Assembly: GCF_002287075.1 (NCBI RefSeq)
Contig: NZ_NSKE01000011.1
Coordinates: 62,001-126,000, forward strand
Reading direction: 5' to 3'
Source of the DNA: Fodinibius salipaludis
Lineage (GTDB): Bacteria > Bacteroidota > Rhodothermia > Balneolales > Balneolaceae
DNA length: 64,000 nucleotides
Part shown: piece by piece, positions 3,857 to 63,154 of the stretch
Numbering within the stretch: position 1 is the first letter of the stretch
Layout: each line of letters opens with the position of its first letter
Program-made: the position numbers and the translations under genes
The notes under the pieces: generated by a model
Database searches by the model: none
Told to the model about the DNA's origin: nothing
What the model saw: only the letters and a program-made list of their open reading frames with translations

Positions 3857-6800
3857 TCAGTTTAGTTGCCGAGCCAGGACTACAGTCTTTTTGAAGCTCA
3901 GGTCACTTCCTGAGGTACTATCATAAGCTTCAAAAACAACAATATATATTCCGATACGGTTGCGGCTCTTGTTGTCTTTTCGTCCATCCCAAATAAGCTG
4001 TCCTTCAAATCCGGCTTGCTTGCCGTCGGCCAATGTGCGCACCAGGCGTCCGTAGCGATCATAAATCCGAACCTTGATCAGGTAGTCCTGCTGATCAAGT
4101 TTGTAGTTAATGAACAGATTATCCTCATACCCGTCATCATCCGGGGAAAAAGGATTGGGGTTGAAACGTATACCTGTTTCCTGATTGACTTGAGCATTTT
4201 CTTGGTAGATCGAATTTTCCGAATTTGGTGTCCCGCCTTTTTCAGTTACACTGGATCCCCAATTTGAACCATCACTGCTGGGTCCACCGGGTGCGATACG
4301 TTCGAGGGCAATACCGCGAGTATCAATGATATTGGGATTATGCCAGCTTTCATCATAAAACACGGAATCGATGGTAGCGCCCGTACTGTCGGCTATGTAA
4401 ATAGCATCATCTGAAGAAGCTAAACTGAGACTGGAGCGGTCTGCCCGCATAATGGATTGCATATTAGGTGGCTCCAGATCAAAAAAGGCAGCAGTTTGGC
4501 CTTCCTCAAAGTTTGTGTTCTCATCTGCATGGAGGAGTACATGTCCCTGTGGCGGAACCCATTTTGCGGTGGTAGATACCGGCCGTATGTCCCGTATATC
4601 TCCGTTTTCATCAGGTTCGTCATGTAGAAACAGTCCTTCAAGGGAAAGGGCATAGTCTTGGGTATTGCGCAGCTCAATATACTCAGTTTGATCGGGCTGA
4701 TTGTCATCAGAATCGGCCAGAGGATTAAACATGATTTCGTTGATAACCAGGTCTCCTTTTTGGAGCGGTTGCGCTACGGGAATTTCGGATATCGTGGTCA
4801 TATTCCCCTTTACATCGCTAAGATTTTCTGCCCGAATAGTCGTGCTGTTAGTGTTGATATTATTACTCTTTGAAGTAGGAGAAGACAGGGCAATCACATC
4901 AGCTTTAGTTGAATCAAAATCAAAAATTGAAAGACGTTCATCTCCGGCATAGAAAGCAACATCGTCGGTTAGGCGGATGAATTCACTAAACCGAATTTCA
5001 TAATTACCATTCTTCAATATTTTGGAGAAAATTATCTGGGGAGAATCGGTATCCGCCTGGGAAGTAACATTTTGTTTGCCTGCAGAAATGCCGTTGTCAG
5101 AGGGGTTGGTCTGCCAGTTCGAGGCATCATTTGAAGCCGCTAATGGATCTTTACGTTCAAGAGAAGAGCCATCGGTATTATTGCTCCAGCTTTGATAGTA
5201 GCGCAATGAATCAATGGTTACACCGTTCTTATTTCTGATATAGATATCATCAGGCGTGTTATTATTTAAGGATGGAAACCCGCTTATTGCTACTCCGTTG
5301 GGGATACTTGCCCCAAAATTTTGATTCCCGGTAAGCACGATATATTCACCGGCTTTGAGTTTTATAGGCTTTTCGATTGTTGTTTGGGTACTGTAATCGC
5401 CCACCACCCATTCAGTTATATTGAAATTCTTATCGGTGGTATTATAAAGTTCAATGAAATCGGCCTTTCCTTCAGCTCCCGGATCATACAATATTTCATT
5501 AATAACGATTTGTCTGGATTGGGCTTCATCAATTTGAAGGTATTCGAGCTCCCGGGTAGCATTCGATAACGTATTGCCAAAAATGTCAGAGATATTTGTA
5601 GCTGTAACTGCATAGGTTTGACCATCGGTAAGTTCCTGCTCTAAGAAAAGGGTGACTTTTTTATCTTGTACTGATATCAACTGAATACCAATAGGCGGGG
5701 AGAGCTGATAGTTTTGTGCATCGGTTGCTGATGAGGCTACTTTTTCTGAGAATGTGAGCTCAATTTTATTATTCCCAATGCTAATTAGCTTTTCAAAAGA
5801 AGGCGGGATTTGATCTTGAGGTACTTCATTTCGGGATCCGGGCGTACCAAATCCATTAGAAGCATCGGTCCAGTTTTTCCGAAATTTTCCGGAAACATCA
5901 GTGGTGCGACGTTCCAGCGCGACCTCGTCACCGCCCCAGTCGGAGGTATATTGCAAAGAATCCAGCAGCGTACCGTTTTTATCTCGGATGATGATTTGGT
6001 CGCCGCCGTTGTTGAGTGCAGGAAAGTCACCCATGGTTACCAGTGCAATGTCAGGGTATTCGGATTCGATTGTGTTATCAGGAGCAATGACTACAAAACT
6101 ATCCGGAGGTACAATAAATTGACCGGTGGAAATCGTCCCTTCAAAACTTTCACGGTTATCACTAAGAGTCCAGCCCTGCAGGTTGAGAGATTTATCGGAA
6201 ATGTTATAGAGCTCGATATATTCAGAGCTGTTTACCGGTGGGGCATACATAAATTCATTGATGGCAACATCTCCCGAATCCACCGGTGACGGTTCATAAT
6301 AGGTAAAAGAGGTATCGATCGGAGATATTGTATTATCGAAAATATCTTCGGCATCTTCGATTGAAAGTGTGTACTCCTGTGCGTTTTGCAGGTCAGATCC
6401 AAGCGAGAGCTCTACCGTATCGGCCGCGGTTTGACTTACCGATGAAATACTGTTGTTGGTGATACTAAAGCTGCCAGCCTGATTCAGGCGCTCATCAAAA
6501 ACAACTTGTAGCGTGTGTGTGGATAAAATATTCAGCTTAGTGAGCCTGGGCGGTGTATTGTCTTTGTCCATCTCATTGGCTACCCCCGGTGTTCCTCCAT
6601 TAGAATTGGGCGAATCGCCCCAATTTTCTTCATAAATACTCGGAGCGGAAGCCGATCGTCGTTCCAGTGCCACATCTGTGCCGCCCCAGTCAGAGTTATA
6701 GGTTAGAGAATCTGCTTTAGCTCCGGTATTAGTAATCAATTGTACCGCATCAGGTGTTGTATTATTGAGAGCGGGAAAGCCGGCCTGGTGATATGCTCGA

Positions 6801-7981
6801 TCACCAAATACATTAAAAAGTTCTGTGGTATCGGCAGATATAACCAAGAAGTTGTCAGGTTCTATGGGGATGGGATCGGAGCCTAAGCTGGAGCTGCTGT
6901 AGTTATCAGCAATTTCCCAGTCAGCGAGATTTAAGTATTTATTGCTGGCGTTTTTGAGCTCGATGTATTCTTCGTTGATTGTCGTCGGATAATCATAAGC
7001 AAATTCGTTGATAAGGATATCTCCCTGGGTGTAGGAGTCAAAAAGCTGAAACTTAAAGTCCGTGTTGGGATCGATAGTATTGCCTTCGTTGTCGTCAATA
7101 TCGCTGACGGTCAGGGTGTATTCCCTGCCGGGGATAGGATTATTGTAAATGAGTTGAACAACATTGCCCGAAGTACTGCTGTTGCTGGGACTTCCGATAT
7201 CAGGGGTGACGGTAAAGTCCGATGTTTGCACACTGGCCGGATCAACATCTAAATTAAAAGAAACATCAATGGTTTGATTATCTATGATCGAGACATTTTG
7301 AATATCGAGTGGCGGGTTAACTTTTGTGACTTTTATATCATCGTATTCAAACAGATTTGATCGGGTGCTGGTATAATCACTGAACAGGCCGATAAATTCA
7401 CTTTGGGCATAGGTATTGTCTGTTGCCGTTCCCTGTGCGTTATATGAGGCGCCCCCGGTGGGATCAGCGAAAAGTTCCCAATTTCCATTGAGATCTCTGG
7501 TTACTCGAATGCGAACAGTTACAGGATTAGTATCAATAATATCATCGGTTCCATCTATAATTTTTGTTGTACTGTTGCCATCCTGACGATAGAGGCTTAT
7601 TTCATCCTCGGTGTCACCTATTTGAACAAAATACCCATCTATATCGCCCTTCATATCTTGCTTATCAGCTACAATATAGAATCTTGACAGGTTGCTGCTT
7701 GATGGGTTGAAACCAAGTTCAATGTATGCTTGCCATTCACCATAGGCGGCTGTTGAGCCAGTACTGATTACCGCTTCAGCACTTTCACTTGGTGCATCGA
7801 GCTGAAGCATGTTTGCAGAATTTACGAGATGCTTTGATTCACTGTCGGTCCAAGAGGGATTGTTTGTAAAGTCCCCGTCACTGAAATTTTCATCAATAAT
7901 GATTGATTGAGCGAAGGCAGGTGATTTAATAGAAATGAATATCCCAATAAAAAGGAAAATCAACTTACTTTTGTATCCCAT
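3857..7981 (-). CDS. Secreted multi-domain lamin-tail (LTD) protein with C-terminal sorting-like domain
   Basis: A 1374-residue exported protein. Residues 1-25 form a signal peptide ending in AFAQ. An N-terminal lectin-like (LamG/concanavalin fold) region (about 27-220) is followed by alternating Ig-like SbsA/Big_5 segments (about 225-310, 475-565, 720-810, 980-1065) and four lamin-tail domains, each opening with an INEF/INEI core and an EYIEL or DFIEL strand (starts near 320, 572, 815 and 1070). The last 100 residues (NPNPFSPDDDGYED onward) are a FlgD-like Ig domain of the type found at the C-terminus of secreted FCB-group proteins, with a gliding/T9SS-type flavour. It probably sits on the cell surface or is released. 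LTD proteins of this layout often go with secreted nucleases or adhesion, but no catalytic domain is visible here. A structured RNA and terminator precede it. Confidence 0.85.
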   Translation of the reverse strand: MGYKSKLIFLFIGIFISIKSPAFAQSIIIDENFSDGDFTNNPSWTDSESKHLVNSANMLQLDAPSESAEAVISTGSTAAYGEWQAYIELGFNPSSSNLSRFYIVADKQDMKGDIDGYFVQIGDTEDEISLYRQDGNSTTKIIDGTDDIIDTNPVTVRIRVTRDLNGNWELFADPTGGASYNAQGTATDNTYAQSEFIGLFSDYTSTRSNLFEYDDIKVTKVNPPLDIQNVSIIDNQTIDVSFNLDVDPASVQTSDFTVTPDIGSPSNSSTSGNVVQLIYNNPIPGREYTLTVSDIDDNEGNTIDPNTDFKFQLFDSYTQGDILINEFAYDYPTTINEEYIELKNASNKYLNLADWEIADNYSSSSLGSDPIPIEPDNFLVISADTTELFNVFGDRAYHQAGFPALNNTTPDAVQLITNTGAKADSLTYNSDWGGTDVALERRSASAPSIYEENWGDSPNSNGGTPGVANEMDKDNTPPRLTKLNILSTHTLQVVFDERLNQAGSFSITNNSISSVSQTAADTVELSLGSDLQNAQEYTLSIEDAEDIFDNTISPIDTSFTYYEPSPVDSGDVAINEFMYAPPVNSSEYIELYNISDKSLNLQGWTLSDNRESFEGTISTGQFIVPPDSFVVIAPDNTIESEYPDIALVTMGDFPALNNGGDQIIIRDKNGTLLDSLQYTSDWGGDEVALERRTTDVSGKFRKNWTDASNGFGTPGSRNEVPQDQIPPSFEKLISIGNNKIELTFSEKVASSATDAQNYQLSPPIGIQLISVQDKKVTLFLEQELTDGQTYAVTATNISDIFGNTLSNATRELEYLQIDEAQSRQIVINEILYDPGAEGKADFIELYNTTDKNFNITEWVVGDYSTQTTIEKPIKLKAGEYIVLTGNQNFGASIPNGVAISGFPSLNNNTPDDIYIRNKNGVTIDSLRYYQSWSNNTDGSSLERKDPLAASNDASNWQTNPSDNGISAGKQNVTSQADTDSPQIIFSKILKNGNYEIRFSEFIRLTDDVAFYAGDERLSIFDFDSTKADVIALSSPTSKSNNINTNSTTIRAENLSDVKGNMTTISEIPVAQPLQKGDLVINEIMFNPLADSDDNQPDQTEYIELRNTQDYALSLEGLFLHDEPDENGDIRDIRPVSTTAKWVPPQGHVLLHADENTNFEEGQTAAFFDLEPPNMQSIMRADRSSLSLASSDDAIYIADSTGATIDSVFYDESWHNPNIIDTRGIALERIAPGGPSSDGSNWGSSVTEKGGTPNSENSIYQENAQVNQETGIRFNPNPFSPDDDGYEDNLFINYKLDQQDYLIKVRIYDRYGRLVRTLADGKQAGFEGQLIWDGRKDNKSRNRIGIYIVVFEAYDSTSGSDLSFKKTVVLARQLN

Positions 7982-8064
7982 ACCGAGTTTCTTGATAAAT
8001 AGTCTTTAGGAGAATAATAGAGAAGAATATAAATGGCAAGAAAATCCGTCCGATATAAAAAAGA

Positions 8065-35164: not shown

Positions 35165-35191
35165 TTTAAGAAAATGACTTATTTTCTTAAA
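35165..35191. other. AT-rich hairpin in front of the second APC gene
   Basis: A perfect 11-bp stem, TTTAAGAAAAT / ATTTTCTTAAA, with a 5-nt loop, 41 bp upstream of the copy-2 start. It has no T-run after it in either direction, so it is probably not a terminator; it may be an mRNA stability or operator element. Confidence 0.45.
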
Positions 35192-35231
35192 CTCTGAACT
35201 AAAATTTTATAACCGTTTTAACTTAAAAAGC

Positions 35232-37361
35232 ATGGCTCACGAAAAACTGGAAAAGCAACTTGGATTGTGGGATGTATATGCAATTGCGACGGGAGCAATG
35301 TTTAGTTCCGGGTTTTTCCTGTTGCCGGGTATTGCTGCAGCAATAACAGGTCCATCGGTATTTATCGCATATTTTGTTTCAGGGCTTTTGGTATTACCGA
35401 CGATGTTTAGCGTGGCAGAGCTGGCCACAGCCATGCCCAAAGCCGGAGGGACCTATTATATCATTGATCGCAGCCTTGGTCCCGTGATGGGAACAGTTGG
35501 AGGTTATGGTTCTTGGCTGGCTTTGGTGCTAAAAAGTGCTTTTGCATTGATTGGGATGGGTGCTTATATCTCAATATTTGTTGAGCTTCCAATTGTACCG
35601 GTCGCTGTGGTCTTGACGATTGCTTTTGGGGTTCTAAATATTGTAGGAGCTAAAGAGACAACGGCCCTACAGAAAGTACTGGTTGCCGCCCTGATAAGTA
35701 TTATGACTTTTTATATTGCTCAGGGATTGTTCTCCGTTTTTTCGGCCGACTTTTTTGAGGTAACTCGTAATCAGTTTACGCCTCTCTTTATTGATGGTGC
35801 TACCGGATTTTGGGCCACGGTAGGGATGGTTTTCGTATCCTACGCCGGTCTCACAAAAGTTGCCAGTGTGGCTGAGGAGGTTAGAAATCCCGATAGAAAT
35901 ATTCCGTGGGGTATGTTCCTCTCTATCATGTCGGCCATTTTTGTTTATGTTGCCGGTGTATTTATTATGGTTTCGGTGTTGGATCCTGCTGAATTTCGCG
36001 AAGATCTAACTCCAGTTGCTACGGCCGGAGAAGCTTTTATGAGCTGGCTGCCGGGAGAGACCGGTATTATATTAGTGGTAATAGCTGCTGTAGCCGCCTT
36101 TGCTTCCACTGGTAATGCGGGTATTATGTCAGCTTCTCGCTATCCGTTGGCAATGGCACGAGATAAGCTCATTGATAACCGATTTTCAAAAATTGGGTCG
36201 ATGGGTACGCCGGTCATTGCAATTATTGCCACGGTATTTTTGATGATTTTCTTCCTGGTTGCTTTTAATGTTGCACAGGTAGCAAAATTGGCCAGTGCGT
36301 TTCAGTTATTGCTGTTTGGCTTATTGAATCTGGCAGTAATTGTAATGCGCGAAAGTAAAATTGAGGAGTACGATCCCGGTTTTAATTCTCCTTTCTACCC
36401 TTGGATCCAAATTGCCGGGATGATCCTTTCGGCTATTCTTATTCTGGAAATGGGCTTGCTGTCAATCCTCTTTACTTTGGTAGTGAGTATTTTCAGTATT
36501 GGTTGGTTTTACTACTATGCGTATGGCAAGATTGATCGTGAAGGAGCTATCTTTCATGTAACGGCTCGTCTTGGTAAACGCAAAGATCAGGGATTGGAGC
36601 GAGAAATGCGTGGCATACTTCGAGAAAAAGGACTTCGCGAGGAAGATCCTTATGAGCATGTAGTGGCTAGTGCTGCGGTTATTGATGAGCCAAATAAAAA
36701 CCTGAGTTATAAAACGATTATAAAACAGGCTTCAGATATTTTTGCCGAACGCCTTGATATGGATCGGGAGTTTCTTGTAGATAATTTTTGTAAGGCTCAG
36801 GATATGGGGACGATACCGCTTGGTAATAGTGCGGTTATCAATCATATTCGAGTGGACGAAGATTGCCAGCCTCAAATGGTGTTGGTGCGTATTCCGGAAA
36901 GTATTAAGGTATCCACCGAAGGATTTGATGTTCTTGATGAAGACCAGACGGGAGATGTGGAAAATCTGCGTGCAATGATTTTCTTGGTTAGTTCTTCAGA
37001 ACATTCGAGCCAGCATCTGCGGCTGATTGCCCATCTTGCAGAAATGATTGATGCCAAGCACTTTATTGAACGATGGAAAAGTGCGGAAAATGAGTCAGAA
37101 CTGCGGGAAATTCTGCTCAGAGATGAACGCTTTATCAATATTACCATCAGGGAAAACAATAGAACCAAAGAGCTTATTGGTAAAAAAATTATGGAGCTTG
37201 ACCTGCCTGGAGAAAGTCTCATTACCATTCTTAAACGGAATGGTAATATCAAGATTCCACATGGTTATACGGTTTTAGAGGATGGAGATGAAATATCTAT
37301 TATCGGAGAAGTAGAAGATATCGAAAAGGTTAAAGAATGGCGTAAAACAGACGATAAATAG
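35232..37361 (+). CDS. APC-family transporter with C-terminal RCK_C domain (copy 2)
   Basis: A 709-residue paralog of the preceding gene, aligned over its full length with the same order: membrane domain (about 1-440), an unassigned cytoplasmic middle (about 470-620), RCK_C domain (about 640-705, IGKKIMELDLPGESLITIL). Near-identical blocks include AIATGAMFSSGFF, FVSYAGLTKVASVAEEV and FASTGNAGIMSASRYPLAMARDK. The two arose by tandem duplication but have diverged clearly in the soluble middle, suggesting different regulation or substrates. ATG start at 35232. Confidence 0.9.
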   Translation: MAHEKLEKQLGLWDVYAIATGAMFSSGFFLLPGIAAAITGPSVFIAYFVSGLLVLPTMFSVAELATAMPKAGGTYYIIDRSLGPVMGTVGGYGSWLALVLKSAFALIGMGAYISIFVELPIVPVAVVLTIAFGVLNIVGAKETTALQKVLVAALISIMTFYIAQGLFSVFSADFFEVTRNQFTPLFIDGATGFWATVGMVFVSYAGLTKVASVAEEVRNPDRNIPWGMFLSIMSAIFVYVAGVFIMVSVLDPAEFREDLTPVATAGEAFMSWLPGETGIILVVIAAVAAFASTGNAGIMSASRYPLAMARDKLIDNRFSKIGSMGTPVIAIIATVFLMIFFLVAFNVAQVAKLASAFQLLLFGLLNLAVIVMRESKIEEYDPGFNSPFYPWIQIAGMILSAILILEMGLLSILFTLVVSIFSIGWFYYYAYGKIDREGAIFHVTARLGKRKDQGLEREMRGILREKGLREEDPYEHVVASAAVIDEPNKNLSYKTIIKQASDIFAERLDMDREFLVDNFCKAQDMGTIPLGNSAVINHIRVDEDCQPQMVLVRIPESIKVSTEGFDVLDEDQTGDVENLRAMIFLVSSSEHSSQHLRLIAHLAEMIDAKHFIERWKSAENESELREILLRDERFINITIRENNRTKELIGKKIMELDLPGESLITILKRNGNIKIPHGYTVLEDGDEISIIGEVEDIEKVKEWRKTDDK

Positions 37362-38902: not shown

Positions 38903-39910
38903 CTATTCAGTAACCCTGGGATTATCAATAGAGCCTTGTAGTTGAATGGTAATTCCCGCTTCGGATTTCGGTAGGGTGATAGATAATAGTTGTTCAATAT
39001 TGTTTAACACGTTGCCAAATTTTTCCGAGAAGTCAGAGAGTGAAATTTGCATATCTCGAAATTCGGAATCTTCCAAGGGCTGTTTAAGAATGATATTTCC
39101 TTGGCTGGTAAGTAAAGCTAATTCCGATTTAACAGTGGAATTAATTGCCAATGTATCATCAGCTTGAGAGACGGGTTTAGTCCGTAATTCTGCAGACTGG
39201 AAGGGGATGGCATCAGTTGGATAGCCAAAGCCTTTAATAAAGAAACTATACTTGTTCTGTAATGATTCGGAGGGTGTCCAAAGCAGTGAATCCAGGCGAA
39301 TATGATGAGAACCCTCTTTCCAAAAGTTTGTTTGTGCTTTTGAAATGCTGCCGGAATAGCTCAACTCTTGAGCTTTAATGGTTGAAAGTAATGTTTGGGG
39401 AACCGAGAAAGTAATATTACTACTCCGGATTTTGAGAGACTGATCTGTACTAAAAGGAGTTCCGTTGACAGCACTTTGAATACCATCAAGGGCATTGCCT
39501 TGATACGTAATCGTAAGCGAATCAGACTTTACTTCCTGCAGTTCTGCTTTGTTTGTATATGAAGGGGATATCGCATTGATAATGGTTTTATCCAAGTGAT
39601 TTAATCCGTATTCGACCCCGCCAAAATATATATTCAAAAAGTCGAGGTAGTTTAGGTCCAGCTTAAGCTGCCGGGCGCGTTCGATATGATTTCCCAAAAT
39701 TATATTCAGGTCATTTATCGTAATATCTGCGGAAAAGGGGGCTACATCTATTTCGGAATATTGAACAGATATTGTATTTCTTTGGCTCGTCTGTTCTTGG
39801 ATGGCCTCATCTATCTGCTGCTCGGCATGTGAAGCTGCTAAAAAGTGATAGCCGATAATAGCTATAACAAGGACCAACCCCCCTATGAAATAATATTTTA
39901 TGTTTTTCAT
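38903..39910 (-). CDS. Hypothetical membrane-anchored protein, 335 aa
   Basis: Not recognised. One N-terminal membrane anchor (about 6-25, YFIGGLVLVIAIIGYHFLA) precedes a 300-residue extracytoplasmic part made of regular beta strands with little helix (SVQYSEIDVAPFSADITINDLNIIL, LKIRSSNITFSVPQ). The pattern recalls AsmA/DUF748-type proteins that make long grooves between membranes, but no family motif was confirmed. The gene lies 15 nt after hisS on the same strand and is likely co-transcribed with it. Confidence 0.7.
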   Translation of the reverse strand: MKNIKYYFIGGLVLVIAIIGYHFLAASHAEQQIDEAIQEQTSQRNTISVQYSEIDVAPFSADITINDLNIILGNHIERARQLKLDLNYLDFLNIYFGGVEYGLNHLDKTIINAISPSYTNKAELQEVKSDSLTITYQGNALDGIQSAVNGTPFSTDQSLKIRSSNITFSVPQTLLSTIKAQELSYSGSISKAQTNFWKEGSHHIRLDSLLWTPSESLQNKYSFFIKGFGYPTDAIPFQSAELRTKPVSQADDTLAINSTVKSELALLTSQGNIILKQPLEDSEFRDMQISLSDFSEKFGNVLNNIEQLLSITLPKSEAGITIQLQGSIDNPRVTE

Positions 39911-39925
39911 AGGAAGTGTTCTTTT

Positions 39926-57187: not shown

Positions 57188-57607
57188 CTATTCTCCGTGT
57201 AGCGTTACGACCAGTTTACGAGGACCGCCGCTATTGCGGTGTTCGCATAAATAAATGCCTTGCCAGGTTCCAAGATTTACTTTACCGTTGGTAATTGGAA
57301 TGGAAACCGAATGCCCCAAGAGTGAGCTTTTAATATGTGAAGTCATATCATCGGGCCCCTCAAGCGTGTGCTCATAGAGGGACGTATCTTCCGGAACCAT
57401 GCGCTTAAAGTGGGAGGCAAAATCCCTTCGAACTGAAGGATCAGCATTCTCATTAATGGTGAGGCTGGCGCTGGTATGCTGGATAAAGATATGCGCAATT
57501 CCTGTATTGATATTCTTGATTTCCGGAATTTCTTTTAGAATTTCATCAGTAATAATGTGATATCCCCGAGATTTGGGAGAGAGGGTGATATTCTTTTGAT
57601 GCCACAT
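57188..57607 (-). CDS. YjbQ-family (secondary thiamine-phosphate synthase) protein
   Basis: A 139-residue protein of the UPF0047/YjbQ family. The core HTSASLTINENADPSVRRDF (about 46-65) and the C-terminal GTWQGIYLCEHRN (about 113-125) with His and Glu residues are diagnostic. Members have weak thiamine-phosphate synthase activity in vitro; the true role is unsettled. Downstream of the SDR gene on the same strand with a 61-nt gap. Confidence 0.92.
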   Translation of the reverse strand: MWHQKNITLSPKSRGYHIITDEILKEIPEIKNINTGIAHIFIQHTSASLTINENADPSVRRDFASHFKRMVPEDTSLYEHTLEGPDDMTSHIKSSLLGHSVSIPITNGKVNLGTWQGIYLCEHRNSGGPRKLVVTLHGE

Positions 57608-57668: not shown

Positions 57669-58445
57669 TTATCCAAATAAACCTTTAATATTACCACCGT
57701 CGTGACTGATGGTTTGGCCCGTTACATAAGAGGCATGGGGAGATAAAATCCATCCCGCCAGTGAAGCCAGCTCCTCACCTTTCCCAAAACGTCCAACCGG
57801 AACAGAAGCTTCCATCTCTTCTCGAACCTCCTCCATTGATTTGTCGGATTCATCAACTGCTTTTTTTATAACCCGTTCTATGGCAGGAGTATCGTGTGAT
57901 CCCGGCGCGAGCACATTTACTGTAACGCCCTGTTTGGCAACTTCCTGGGATAACGACTTGGCAAATCCCACCACTCCGGCACGGAATGAGTTGCTGAGCA
58001 CAAGTGACGGGATAGGTTGTTTCACCGACTGACTTTCCACAAATAGAATGCGTCCGTATTCTTTTGAGGTAAAGTAGGAGACCAGTCGAAGTACCAGCTC
58101 AATTTTCCAACGCATTACATTTTTGTATGCTTCATCCCAATCATAAATAGCGGTTTCGAGTGGACTTAGGGCCGGTGGTCCGCCGGCATTTACTACCACG
58201 CCGTGGAGCTGTTCATTACCAATGGCCGCTTCAATTTCGTTATGGGTATCGTCATCCGTTAAATCACCGGCTACAATATCCACCTGGTCATCGTATGATT
58301 CTTTGAGCTCATTAAGCTTGTTTTCTCGGCGGGCAATGGCAATAACCGTTGCTCCTTCATCAAGCAATAGTTCTGCAATCGCTCTTCCAAATCCGCTACT
58401 TGCGCCGCAAACAATAAATCGCTGGTCTTCAATTTTTAAATCCAT
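57669..58445 (-). CDS. SDR-family oxidoreductase with altered active site
   Basis: A 258-residue Rossmann protein. The cofactor motif is GASSGFGRA (about 14-22) and VNAGGP lies at about 85-90. The catalytic serine is near Ser138, but the Tyr-x-x-x-Lys expected 13 residues later reads Ser151-Asn-Ser-Phe-Arg155. So the proton-donor tyrosine is absent and lysine is replaced by arginine. Some SDR relatives show this pattern and may be non-catalytic or use other residues. Upstream of YjbQ, same strand. Confidence 0.88.
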   Translation of the reverse strand: MDLKIEDQRFIVCGASSGFGRAIAELLLDEGATVIAIARRENKLNELKESYDDQVDIVAGDLTDDDTHNEIEAAIGNEQLHGVVVNAGGPPALSPLETAIYDWDEAYKNVMRWKIELVLRLVSYFTSKEYGRILFVESQSVKQPIPSLVLSNSFRAGVVGFAKSLSQEVAKQGVTVNVLAPGSHDTPAIERVIKKAVDESDKSMEEVREEMEASVPVGRFGKGEELASLAGWILSPHASYVTGQTISHDGGNIKGLFG

Positions 58446-58556: not shown

Positions 58557-59858
58557 TCAGCTAAAGTCAAAATCCTCAAAATGTATATGCTTACCAAGTA
58601 CTTGTAGCTCTCTAAACTCTTTGAACAGAGACTGTCTCATTTCTTTAGGACCACAGATAAAGATTTCCCGATTATTTAAATCCACGATATCATTTGCTGA
58701 TAAAAAGCCCTCCCGATCAGCCCTGATCAGATGGAAAGAAAATCCGTTCAGTTGGTTTTCCAGCTCTTCGAATTTTTTTAGGTGAACAGCTTCTTCTGTT
58801 CTGTTAACACAATAGTAAAGATCGGTATTGAAATTGGCTGGAATGGGGCTCTCTTCTAAGTTATTAGCCCAGCTGATAAAGGGAGCAATTCCAACCCCAC
58901 CGGCGATCCAGATTTGAGGATGGTCGTATTTTTTGTAATCAAATCGGCCGTACGGACCTTCAATTAAAGCTTTAACGCCCGGTTTAAGTGTTTGATAAAG
59001 ATGATTTGTGTAATCGCCCAGGGCTTTAACAATGATTGTTATATGATCGTCAGATGGGGTACTACAGATCGTAAATGGATGAGCCTCACGACTTATCTTT
59101 GGATCTGAATAACTAAAAAAACAAAATTGTCCGGGCGTAAATTGTAGCTGCTTGCCATTTGGGAAAAGGGTGATTCCCATGACTTGGTTATTAGGCCGGT
59201 CTATATGTTGGACGGTATATGATTTTTTGTCAGCCAGCCATTTATAGAAAATGGACTTGTATAAAAAGCTAATAACGCCCAGAACAGCGAATAAGCCAAG
59301 GTATACAGCAAGAAATGGATTGGTACTGATTAATTCATCCAAAAGGAAAATATGGAGGATAAACAGGATGAAAATTATGCCTGTAAGTTTATGGGTGAGC
59401 TTCCATTTATCGTAGGGGATTTTAATAACAAGAGTAATCAGCATCAGTAAAATAAATCCCTAAGTTGCCCAACTGCCAAGGTCAATAGCCAGTCGGTGGT
59501 GGGTGGGGAACGCATATTGTAATGCTTTACCCACATCTTGTGGAACCCATCGAGCGGCTAATGCTATAGGGTGATAGAGAATCAGGAAGAAGGCTATTTT
59601 GCCAATGCTATGATGTGTCTGGTAAACTTTATCTAACCCACCAAAGAGATCTTCAATCCATATTACCCGGGTAGATAGTACAAGAGAAAGAGAGTACATA
59701 ATAAATCCCATAATGCCTGCCACCTGGCTGGTGTAGATAAACCATGGTTTTAAGTTGTGGCGAAAGGTTGTTTCGGGATAAGATAATGCCCAAAGTGGTA
59801 TGGCCAGAATGGGGAGACCGTATATAATGGCGTTAGCTAATTTTCTTTTGCTAATCAT
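58557..59858 (-). pseudogene. Ferric-reductase-like flavocytochrome interrupted by one in-frame UAG
   Basis: Two reading frames in the same phase, parted by a single amber codon (CTA on the plus strand at 59460-59462). Read through, they give about 432 residues: a ferric-reductase-like transmembrane domain (about 1-220) and a ferredoxin-NADP reductase domain (about 220-432, with FAD motif AHPFTICSTP, NADPH motif IAGGVGIAPFISW and CGPKEMRQSLF). Heme histidines 82/83 and 96 are before the stop (residue 133); 156 and 169 are after it. Neither piece alone can hold two hemes. The rest of the sequence is intact, so the loss is recent or the stop is suppressed. Start ATG 59858. Confidence 0.8.
59460..59462 (-). 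other. In-frame amber codon
   Basis: TAG on the minus strand, between AGT TGG GCA ACT and GGA TTT ATT TTA CTG, in the frame of both halves of the ferric-reductase-like gene. A TAT or TAC tyrosine, CAG, TTG or TGG is one change away. Confidence 0.85.
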
Positions 59859-60183: not shown

Positions 60184-62004
60184 ATGTACAAGGATATTAG
60201 AAATATTGCGATTATTGCTCATGTTGACCACGGTAAAACAACGTTGGTTGATGAAATGTTAAAACAGAGCGGTACGTTTCGCGAAAATGAAGAGGTTGCC
60301 GAGCGTGTGATGGATTCCGGTGATCTGGAGAAAGAAAAAGGAATTACGATTAGTTCAAAGAATACTGCCGTAAAGTGGGGGGATACCAAAATAAATATTG
60401 TGGATACGCCCGGTCACGCCGATTTTGGCGGAGAGGTAGAGCGTATCCTTAAAATGGTAAATGGTGTGATAATTTTAGTGGATGCCGCCGAAGGGCCGCT
60501 TCCGCAAACTAAGTTTGTACTTCGTAAGTCATTGCAGCTGGGATACGAGCCCATCGTTGTTATCAACAAGATTGACCGTAAGGACGCACGTCCTGATGAA
60601 GTATTGAATGAAATTTTTGATCTCTTTGTGGTGCTTGATGCCACAAATGAGCAACTCGATTTTCCCATTATTTATGCTGAAGGTATTAACGGCATCGCAA
60701 AAAGTGAACTTGAAGAAGACAATGACGATTTAAGTCCGCTTTTTGAGCAGATTATTGAAACTATTCCTGCACCTGAGCAGGTGATGGATGCTCCTTTTAA
60801 AATGCTGGTGAGCAGTATGGATTGGAGCGATTATGTAGGACGTATTGCTATCGGACGTGTGGAACAGGGAACCATTGAGCAGGGGCAACAGATTGCACTG
60901 CTCGATCGTAATGGAGATCTCAAAGAGAAGGCCAAGGCGACAAAACTTTTTACCTTTAATGGATTAAAGCGTGAACCCGTTGAAAAGGCGATAGCCGGAG
61001 ATATTTTTGCACTGGCCGGATATGAGAAGGTAGATATCGGTGATACGCTTACAGCTACCACCGATATGACAGCATTGGATTATTATGATATCGACCAGCC
61101 GACTATGGCAATGTTTTTCCGTGTGAATGATTCGCCATTTGCAGGATTGGAAGGAGATTATGTGACATCGAATCAAATTAAAGATCGGCTGATGCGTGAG
61201 ACTCGCACCAATGTTTCTATTGAAGTGGAGCAAACCGAAGATCCTGATATTTATAAAGTGTCCGGACGCGGTGAACTGCAGCTGGCTATCCTTATCGAGA
61301 CGATGCGTCGCGAGGGATATGAATTTTCAGTATCTCGTCCCGAAGTGCTCTACCAAGAAATCGATGGGCAAAAGCACGAGCCTTTTGAAGAGGTGGTTGT
61401 AGATGTTCATGAAGATTACAGCAATCGAGTTATCGATAATTTGCAGCAGCGGAAAGGAATAATGACATCGATGACGCAAGAGGGAGAAAACAATCGCCTT
61501 ATTTTTAAGGTGCCTTCTCGCGGTTTGATTGGTTTTCGTGGTGAAATGCTTACCGAAACGCGAGGTACGGGTATTATGCATCAACAGTTTGATGCTTATG
61601 AGCCTTTTGCAGGAAAAATTCCGGGCCGTAATAGTGGAACTTTGATTTCACTGGAAAAAGGAGAAGTGACCAGTTATGCGCTTGAGGGGCTACAAGATCG
61701 CGGTACGTTCTTGGTTGAGCCGGGCGACAAAGTTTATGAGGGACAAGTTGTAGGTATTAATAACCGTTCTGATGATCTGGTGGTTAATGTTGTAAAGAAG
61801 AAAAATCTGACAAATCATCGTGCCACACAAAGTGCGGATGCGGTAAAAATTGATCCCGCTAAAAAGATGAGCCTGGAGCAGTGCATCGAGTTTATTGACG
61901 ATGATGAGCTGTTGGAAGTAACGCCCAAGAGCCTGCGAATTCGTAAAAAATATCTTGACTTCAACGAGCGGAAAAGAGCAAAGAAGAACAAGGAATTTGC
62001 ATAA
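60184..62004 (+). CDS. typA: Translational GTPase TypA/BipA
   Basis: A 606-residue ribosome-binding GTPase. G1 is AHVDHGKTT (about 11-19), G3 DTPGHADF (about 71-78) and G4 NKID (about 128-131). Beta-barrel domain II (about 200-290) and EF-G-like domains III and V (about 300-470) follow, with the BipA-specific C-terminal domain (about 480-606). It aids ribosome assembly and stress adaptation. Starts with ATG at 60184; monocistronic with a terminator 25 bp after its stop. Confidence 0.96.
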
Positions 62005-62431: not shown

Positions 62432-63154
62432 ATGAAGAGGTCTATATATATAACACTCATATTCTTAACTTTTACTTCGTTAGCTTTTGCTCAGTCAAAT
62501 ACGTCTGATGTTGATCAGTCGGGAGATGAGCATCTCACGAATATTCTGCAATCAGGTGAGTCAAATGATTCTGATGTTACCCAAAAAGGCGAATCGGGGG
62601 AAGTCTTTATTACCCAAATGGGTGATTTGAATACTGCCGACGCAGTCCAGGATGGTGATAACGATTTAACCATTAACTCTGAGGGGACATCAAATGAAGC
62701 TATTTCGGAACAATCAGGTTCTTATAATTCCGGTCTTATTTTTCAATTAGGCAGCAACAACGCAGCTGATATCACTCAAGCCGGAACAGACAACGATGTG
62801 TTTGTTACCCAAGAAACTGATTATGCTCAGGCTACTGTTAATCAAGATGGGGAGCTCAACTACTCTGATATTTATCAGTATGGTGGTGCAACTTCTGCAT
62901 CCGAAGGAAATACTTATACTGTTGACCAACCCGGTGATTTCAGTACGGTATTTGGTACGCAAGATGGCATAAGCAACTCTATGACTGCTACCCAAAGTGG
63001 AGAAGGACAAGATCTATGGTTCGACCAATCTGGTACCGGAAACTCACTTGATGTTGCTCAAAGTGGATTGTTAGGTAGCGGTTCTGTTAACCATTCTGCA
63101 TATGTTACGCAAGATGGTATGAATAATACTACTGTTATTGATCAATCTAACTAA
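62432..63154 (+). CDS. Curlin-repeat (CsgA/CsgB-like) amyloid protein
   Basis: A 240-residue exported protein with a signal peptide (about 1-21, LAFAQ). The mature part holds about nine repeats of about 22 residues following S/N-x5-Q-x-G-x2-N-x5-Q-x-G, for example SDVTQKGESGEVFITQMGD, ADITQAGTDNDVFVTQ and SLDVAQSGLLGSGSVN. This is the curlin pattern in which aligned Gln and Asn ladders drive cross-beta fibre assembly. The repeats are Asp/Ser/Asn-rich and lack Cys. It likely forms extracellular functional amyloid or a fibre minor subunit. No csgEFG genes are in the window; the following lipoprotein is the only neighbour to hand. Confidence 0.85.
   Translation: MKRSIYITLIFLTFTSLAFAQSNTSDVDQSGDEHLTNILQSGESNDSDVTQKGESGEVFITQMGDLNTADAVQDGDNDLTINSEGTSNEAISEQSGSYNSGLIFQLGSNNAADITQAGTDNDVFVTQETDYAQATVNQDGELNYSDIYQYGGATSASEGNTYTVDQPGDFSTVFGTQDGISNSMTATQSGEGQDLWFDQSGTGNSLDVAQSGLLGSGSVNHSAYVTQDGMNNTTVIDQSN

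Follow-up and report, generated by a model that had tools for sequence, protein, structure and literature searches.

The locus described here lies in a window of 64,000 nucleotides (the whole stretch of DNA that was analysed) on contig C3 of the Fodinibius salipaludis genome, a 3.58 Mb draft assembly in 39 contigs that is 98.94% complete. On the minus strand, positions 58557-59858 form one frame of 433 codons closed by a final TGA. This frame carries a predicted NOX-family NADPH oxidase gene, a candidate for either a pseudogene or translational readthrough, because it contains one internal stop, a TAG at 59460-59462 (codon 133; local sequence TGG GCA ACT TAG GGA). The first-pass annotation had described two halves in one frame cut only by this TAG, and translation of the locus agreed with it in both description and coordinates. 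The part upstream of the stop (59463-59858, minus strand, codons 1-132) comprises the predicted transmembrane helices TM1 to TM3 and the start of TM4, together with H82 and H96, and matches the N-terminal part of Ferric_reduct (PF01794). The downstream part (58560-59459, minus strand, codons 134-433) comprises the rest of TM4, TM5 with H156 and H169, TM6, and the FAD and NAD(P)H domains, which are recognizable by their motifs and by matches to FAD_binding_8, NAD_binding_1 and FAD_binding_6. A mechanically drawn ORF that opens at the first ATG past the TAG (58557-59444, minus strand, 295 aa) would represent a putative reinitiation product.

On one side of the gene lies the divergent typA/bipA (60184-62004, plus strand), which defines the conserved locus, and on the other an SDR-family oxidoreductase gene (57669-58445, minus strand) is followed by a YjbQ-family gene (57188-57607, minus strand) as the next conserved neighbour. 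Adjoining typA, an ORF at 62432-63154 (plus strand) contains many repeated Q-S-G/N motifs that are reminiscent of curlin-type repeats.

The gene had been called ferric-reductase-like in the first-pass annotation. This description is right for the PF01794 match and for the domain architecture shared with the ferric reductases (FRE) of the FRD superfamily, but as a specific assignment to ferric reductases it is too narrow, since both sequence and fold place the family nearest to the oxygen-reducing NOX enzymes. The closest match to the intact ortholog L040 was SpNOX, the NADPH oxidase of Streptococcus pneumoniae, both in sequence (phmmer against 8qt6, 1.8e-39) and in fold (Foldseek 5.5e-27, TM 0.83/0.90). 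Common to SpNOX (PDB 8QT6, 8QQ7) and the Fodinibius family are six transmembrane helices, histidine pairs on TM3 and TM5, and FAD and NADPH motifs; the two differ in that sequence identity is only ~24%, the window copy has a TAG in TM4, and oxidase activity in the Fodinibius group is predicted. Published filters for bacterial NOX include the FAD motif H[PSA]F[TS][LIMV] and two His-X12/14-His pairs that lie on TM3 and TM5 with a separation of 20 residues or more (PMC5676040). The read-through frame passes these sequence filters, with HPFTI at residue 260, GVGIAP at 321 and both histidine pairs, and a further NAD(P)H-domain motif, CGP, is found at 402. The pairs H82-X13-H96 and H156-X12-H169 are invariant in 12 orthologs. 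Thus, of the histidines that had been proposed as flanking the stop, H82, H96, H156 and H169 are supported, but H83 is not a credible ligand, as some orthologs have Leu, Arg, Ser, Lys or Ile in its place. Judged from sequence and predicted structure, the ancestral product is a member of the NOX family with SpNOX as its nearest characterized relative, and its electron acceptor is putative. The features that define a NOX do not, however, all fall on one translated polypeptide in the window copy; because the TAG at codon 133 separates the two histidine pairs, the locus is presumably a disrupted NOX member and not a working one. No compensating second copy was found in the genome, where the only Ferric_reduct match above cut-off was the 58557-59858 locus itself; another match to the C-terminal half was a 28%-identical FAD/NAD domain without a membrane part.

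Intact syntenic orthologs were found in two uncultured Aliifodinibius sp. records, G004 (L032) and G008 (L040), and share 71-72% identity with the window copy over the full length. Since Pfam domains match on both sides of the stop and these orthologs are continuous across the codon, the interrupted frame is more than a chance arrangement. The gene order typA, NOX, SDR, YjbQ and HPRT is identical in G004, G008 and G009, so that the copies in G004 and G008 have the same neighbours as the window copy and differ from it at position 133, where they carry a sense codon, CTG (Leu). Codons 132-133 read CTA CTG in G004 and TTA CTG in G008 (Leu-Leu in both), compared with ACT TAG in the window. The G009 ortholog also reads TTA CTG at these codons; it is frameshifted close to codon 209, within a stretch of nine A (L033 5110-5237 / L005), which possibly reflects real decay or a homopolymer assembly error. 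Across the family, Leu is nearly invariant at 132; at 133 the three close orthologs have Leu (CTG), and several distant ones have Trp. The comparison at codon 133 that had been suggested thus gave a sense codon in every ortholog found, and none with a stop. Upstream of the gene, a promoter-like element is present in the relatives (TTGACT-N17-TACATT-like in G004 and G008, TTGACT-N17-TAATTT in G009). The window has TTGATT-N17-TACATT at 59973-59945; these regions do not align in register with those of the relatives, and a consensus scan scored no better than shuffled sequences. Elsewhere in the window, the length of a large repeat-bearing ORF differs among species: at 3857-8005 (minus strand) it encodes 1382 aa, G008 has a single counterpart of 1629 aa, and G004 has two shorter ORFs, of 841 and 330 aa, in its place.

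The distribution of the gene within the genus is patchy. The SDR gene is retained in all 12 genus genomes examined, whereas NOX is absent between typA and SDR in seven of them (G001, G002, G003, G005, G006, G007 and G010), where a gap of 216-385 nt (323 nt in G002, 216 nt in G006) contains no detectable remnant. In G011 the typA-SDR site is also empty, and an intact NOX of ~50% identity is located on another contig (C22 (L008) versus C11 (L113)). Phylogenetic analysis of typA, SDR and YjbQ grouped the window species, G008, G004, G002, G009 and G006 in one clade with a support of 95/95. Within this six-species clade only the sister pair G004 and G008 has an intact NOX, and G002 and G006, which lack the gene, are placed among the carriers. 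The presence of the gene at the same site in the carriers suggests vertical inheritance with repeated loss, and NOX appears to be dispensable in this clade.

To judge what the stop would do to the protein, we used transmembrane positions from an AlphaFold2 model of the intact ortholog (mean pLDDT 83), in which TM3 corresponds to helix 75-102, TM4 to 123-144 and TM5 to 149-172, so that residue 133 falls midway along TM4. Each heme of SpNOX is bound by one histidine from TM3 and one from TM5 (PMC11031084). Given this pairing, termination at codon 133 would remove one ligand of each heme as well as the whole FAD/NADPH domain, and the upstream product of 132 residues, with the TM3 ligands only, would be unable to build the heme pathway. 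For the downstream part the outcome is less clear, as the isolated SpNOX dehydrogenase domain oxidises NADPH when FAD is added (PMC11031084). The earlier claim that neither half can work alone thus probably holds for the upstream half and is too strong for the downstream one.

Several observations bear on the age of the lesion. No second stop or frameshift was seen across the rest of the 433-codon frame, where additional frameshifts had been named as the sign of simple decay. There are 168 single changes that could create a stop, and none is seen besides the TAG, which limits neutral divergence after the loss of constraint to less than ~0.05 substitutions per site. The four close copies have dN values of 0.16-0.21, and relative to G009 it is 0.186 for the window copy and 0.207 and 0.211 for the intact copies. 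Read from these alignments, dN shows apparently long purifying selection on both halves, with no sign of acceleration on the window branch; dN is not raised after the lesion, dS is saturated in most pairs, and the lesion would be too young for relaxed selection to show. We also considered whether the window copy is unusually divergent and rejected this, since it breaks two otherwise-invariant columns (R121H and P421L), within the range of 0 to 6 for intact orthologs. Taken at the level of sequence, the disruption is probably young rather than the product of old decay. Codons 132-133 differ from those of both sister species at five of six bases; the gene has two further codon pairs that diverge as strongly, indicating that ACT TAG is not exceptional, and it could have arisen through several substitutions or through a 2-nt deletion combined with a 2-nt insertion.

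The first-pass annotation had also raised the possibility that this UAG is recoded or suppressed. A genome-level recoding or dedicated decoding by a suppressor tRNA or through pyrrolysine, which would place an amino acid at codon 133, is supported by the in-frame UAG itself and by nothing else, and its probability is close to nil. The search for a UAG-decoding tRNA that had been called for was made genome-wide, and no CUA anticodon was present among the 38 tRNAs detected and typed. Both release factors are intact, RF1 with PET at the PxT position and GGQ, and RF2 with SPF and GGQ. The prfB gene encoding RF2 (L044, G000:C36, ~220 kb) retains a classical programmed +1 frameshift site, AGGGGG TAT CTT TGA C. 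PylS gave a background-level match in the genome search (17 bits, where the cut-off is 178). UAG is moreover in use as a terminator: TAG ends seven of 41 long ORFs in the window, and at several of these genes (for example 35178-37361 and 38903-39925) the orthologs in G004 or G008 have TAA at the matching position. When ~40 window genes were compared with the syntenic stretches of G004 and G008, the TAG at codon 133 was the only intragenic stop; the few other stops lay in the first 20 codons of stop-to-stop frames and were taken to precede the start codon. We accordingly rejected a recoded UAG, and the locus has no bearing on the genetic code.

Other explanations would leave some function at the locus. 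Some full-length NOX might be made if the UAG is read through by near-cognate decoding, or if the TAG is a phase-variable or population-level allele, with selection keeping the downstream half. The 300 codons past the stop are unbroken and retain every heme, FAD and NADPH motif, and their dN is no faster than that of intact orthologs; both are consistent with this explanation, and readthrough has been argued widely for bacterial in-frame stops in genes of low dN/dS, where the criterion is conservation of the stop in orthologs (PMC7918605). The window gene resembles those nonsense pseudogenes and in-frame-stop genes in having a single in-frame stop in an otherwise intact frame, but its stop is common to no ortholog found, so that the conservation argument does not apply. 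A suppressor tRNA is missing from the detected set, NOX is wholly absent in two relatives of the same clade, and a young stop accounts for the intact frame equally well. The intact downstream half had been put forward as an argument for recent change or for readthrough; the lack of a second lesion agrees with the former, whereas, if the lesion is young, this intactness is not evidence for the latter, and we regard readthrough with low-level function as unlikely. It is more doubtful still that the UAG is kept as a switch, in which low readthrough would dose a potentially harmful oxidase and the locus would be a functional, translation-limited NOX instead of a pseudogene.

Alternatively, the TAG would be a sequencing or assembly error and the gene would be whole, with a true sense codon at 133; one base could explain the TAG, and the contig belongs to a 39-contig draft. 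Substitution errors in a consensus are rarer than indels, no other such stop occurs in the window, and the neighbouring codon 132 is changed as well (ACT, Thr, where Leu is nearly invariant), so that a single miscalled base, in a stretch otherwise resembling the orthologs, would not account for the sequence; an error of this kind is quite unlikely. A split gene would restart at the first ATG after the stop, 15 nt past the TAG and preceded by AGGGA, and its C-terminal product, comprising TM5-6, the dehydrogenase and a portion of TM4, could act as a flavin reductase, as the activity of the lone SpNOX dehydrogenase domain given FAD would allow (PMC11031084), or as a partner of the N-terminal fragment. 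This ATG, however, did not arise as a new start; it is an ancestral Met codon that the close orthologs share, and the break falls inside TM4 and not at a domain boundary, which makes a split gene very improbable.

We conclude that the locus very probably holds an apparently dispensable NOX gene that a nonsense mutation has recently turned into a pseudogene. A recent nonsense mutation was among the options first offered, and it is the best supported of them, as the stop is missing from intact orthologs at the same locus and no second lesion accompanies it. Two findings weigh against it: the frame is otherwise intact for 300 codons past the stop, as it would also be in a gene rescued by readthrough, and the five-of-six-base difference at codons 132-133 does not point to a simple point mutation as the path to the stop. 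In the proposed course of events, the ancestral gene would have encoded a bacterial NOX with six transmembrane helices, two hemes and an FAD/NADPH domain, passing electrons from NADPH through FAD to two b hemes and across the membrane, as in SpNOX. Codon 133 would then have become UAG in the Fodinibius salipaludis lineage, provided that the base is real. RF1 would end translation in the middle of TM4, leaving a 132-residue fragment in which each His-Fe-His pair has its TM3 member alone, and the transmembrane electron path would presumably be dead. The downstream remainder would be DNA in decay, with the lesion too young for this to have become visible. As a pseudogene, the locus offers a small, clear case of repeated NOX loss at one site within one genus, in which intact, frameshifted, nonsense and cleanly absent states coexist, and it could help to ask when bacteria need a NOX.
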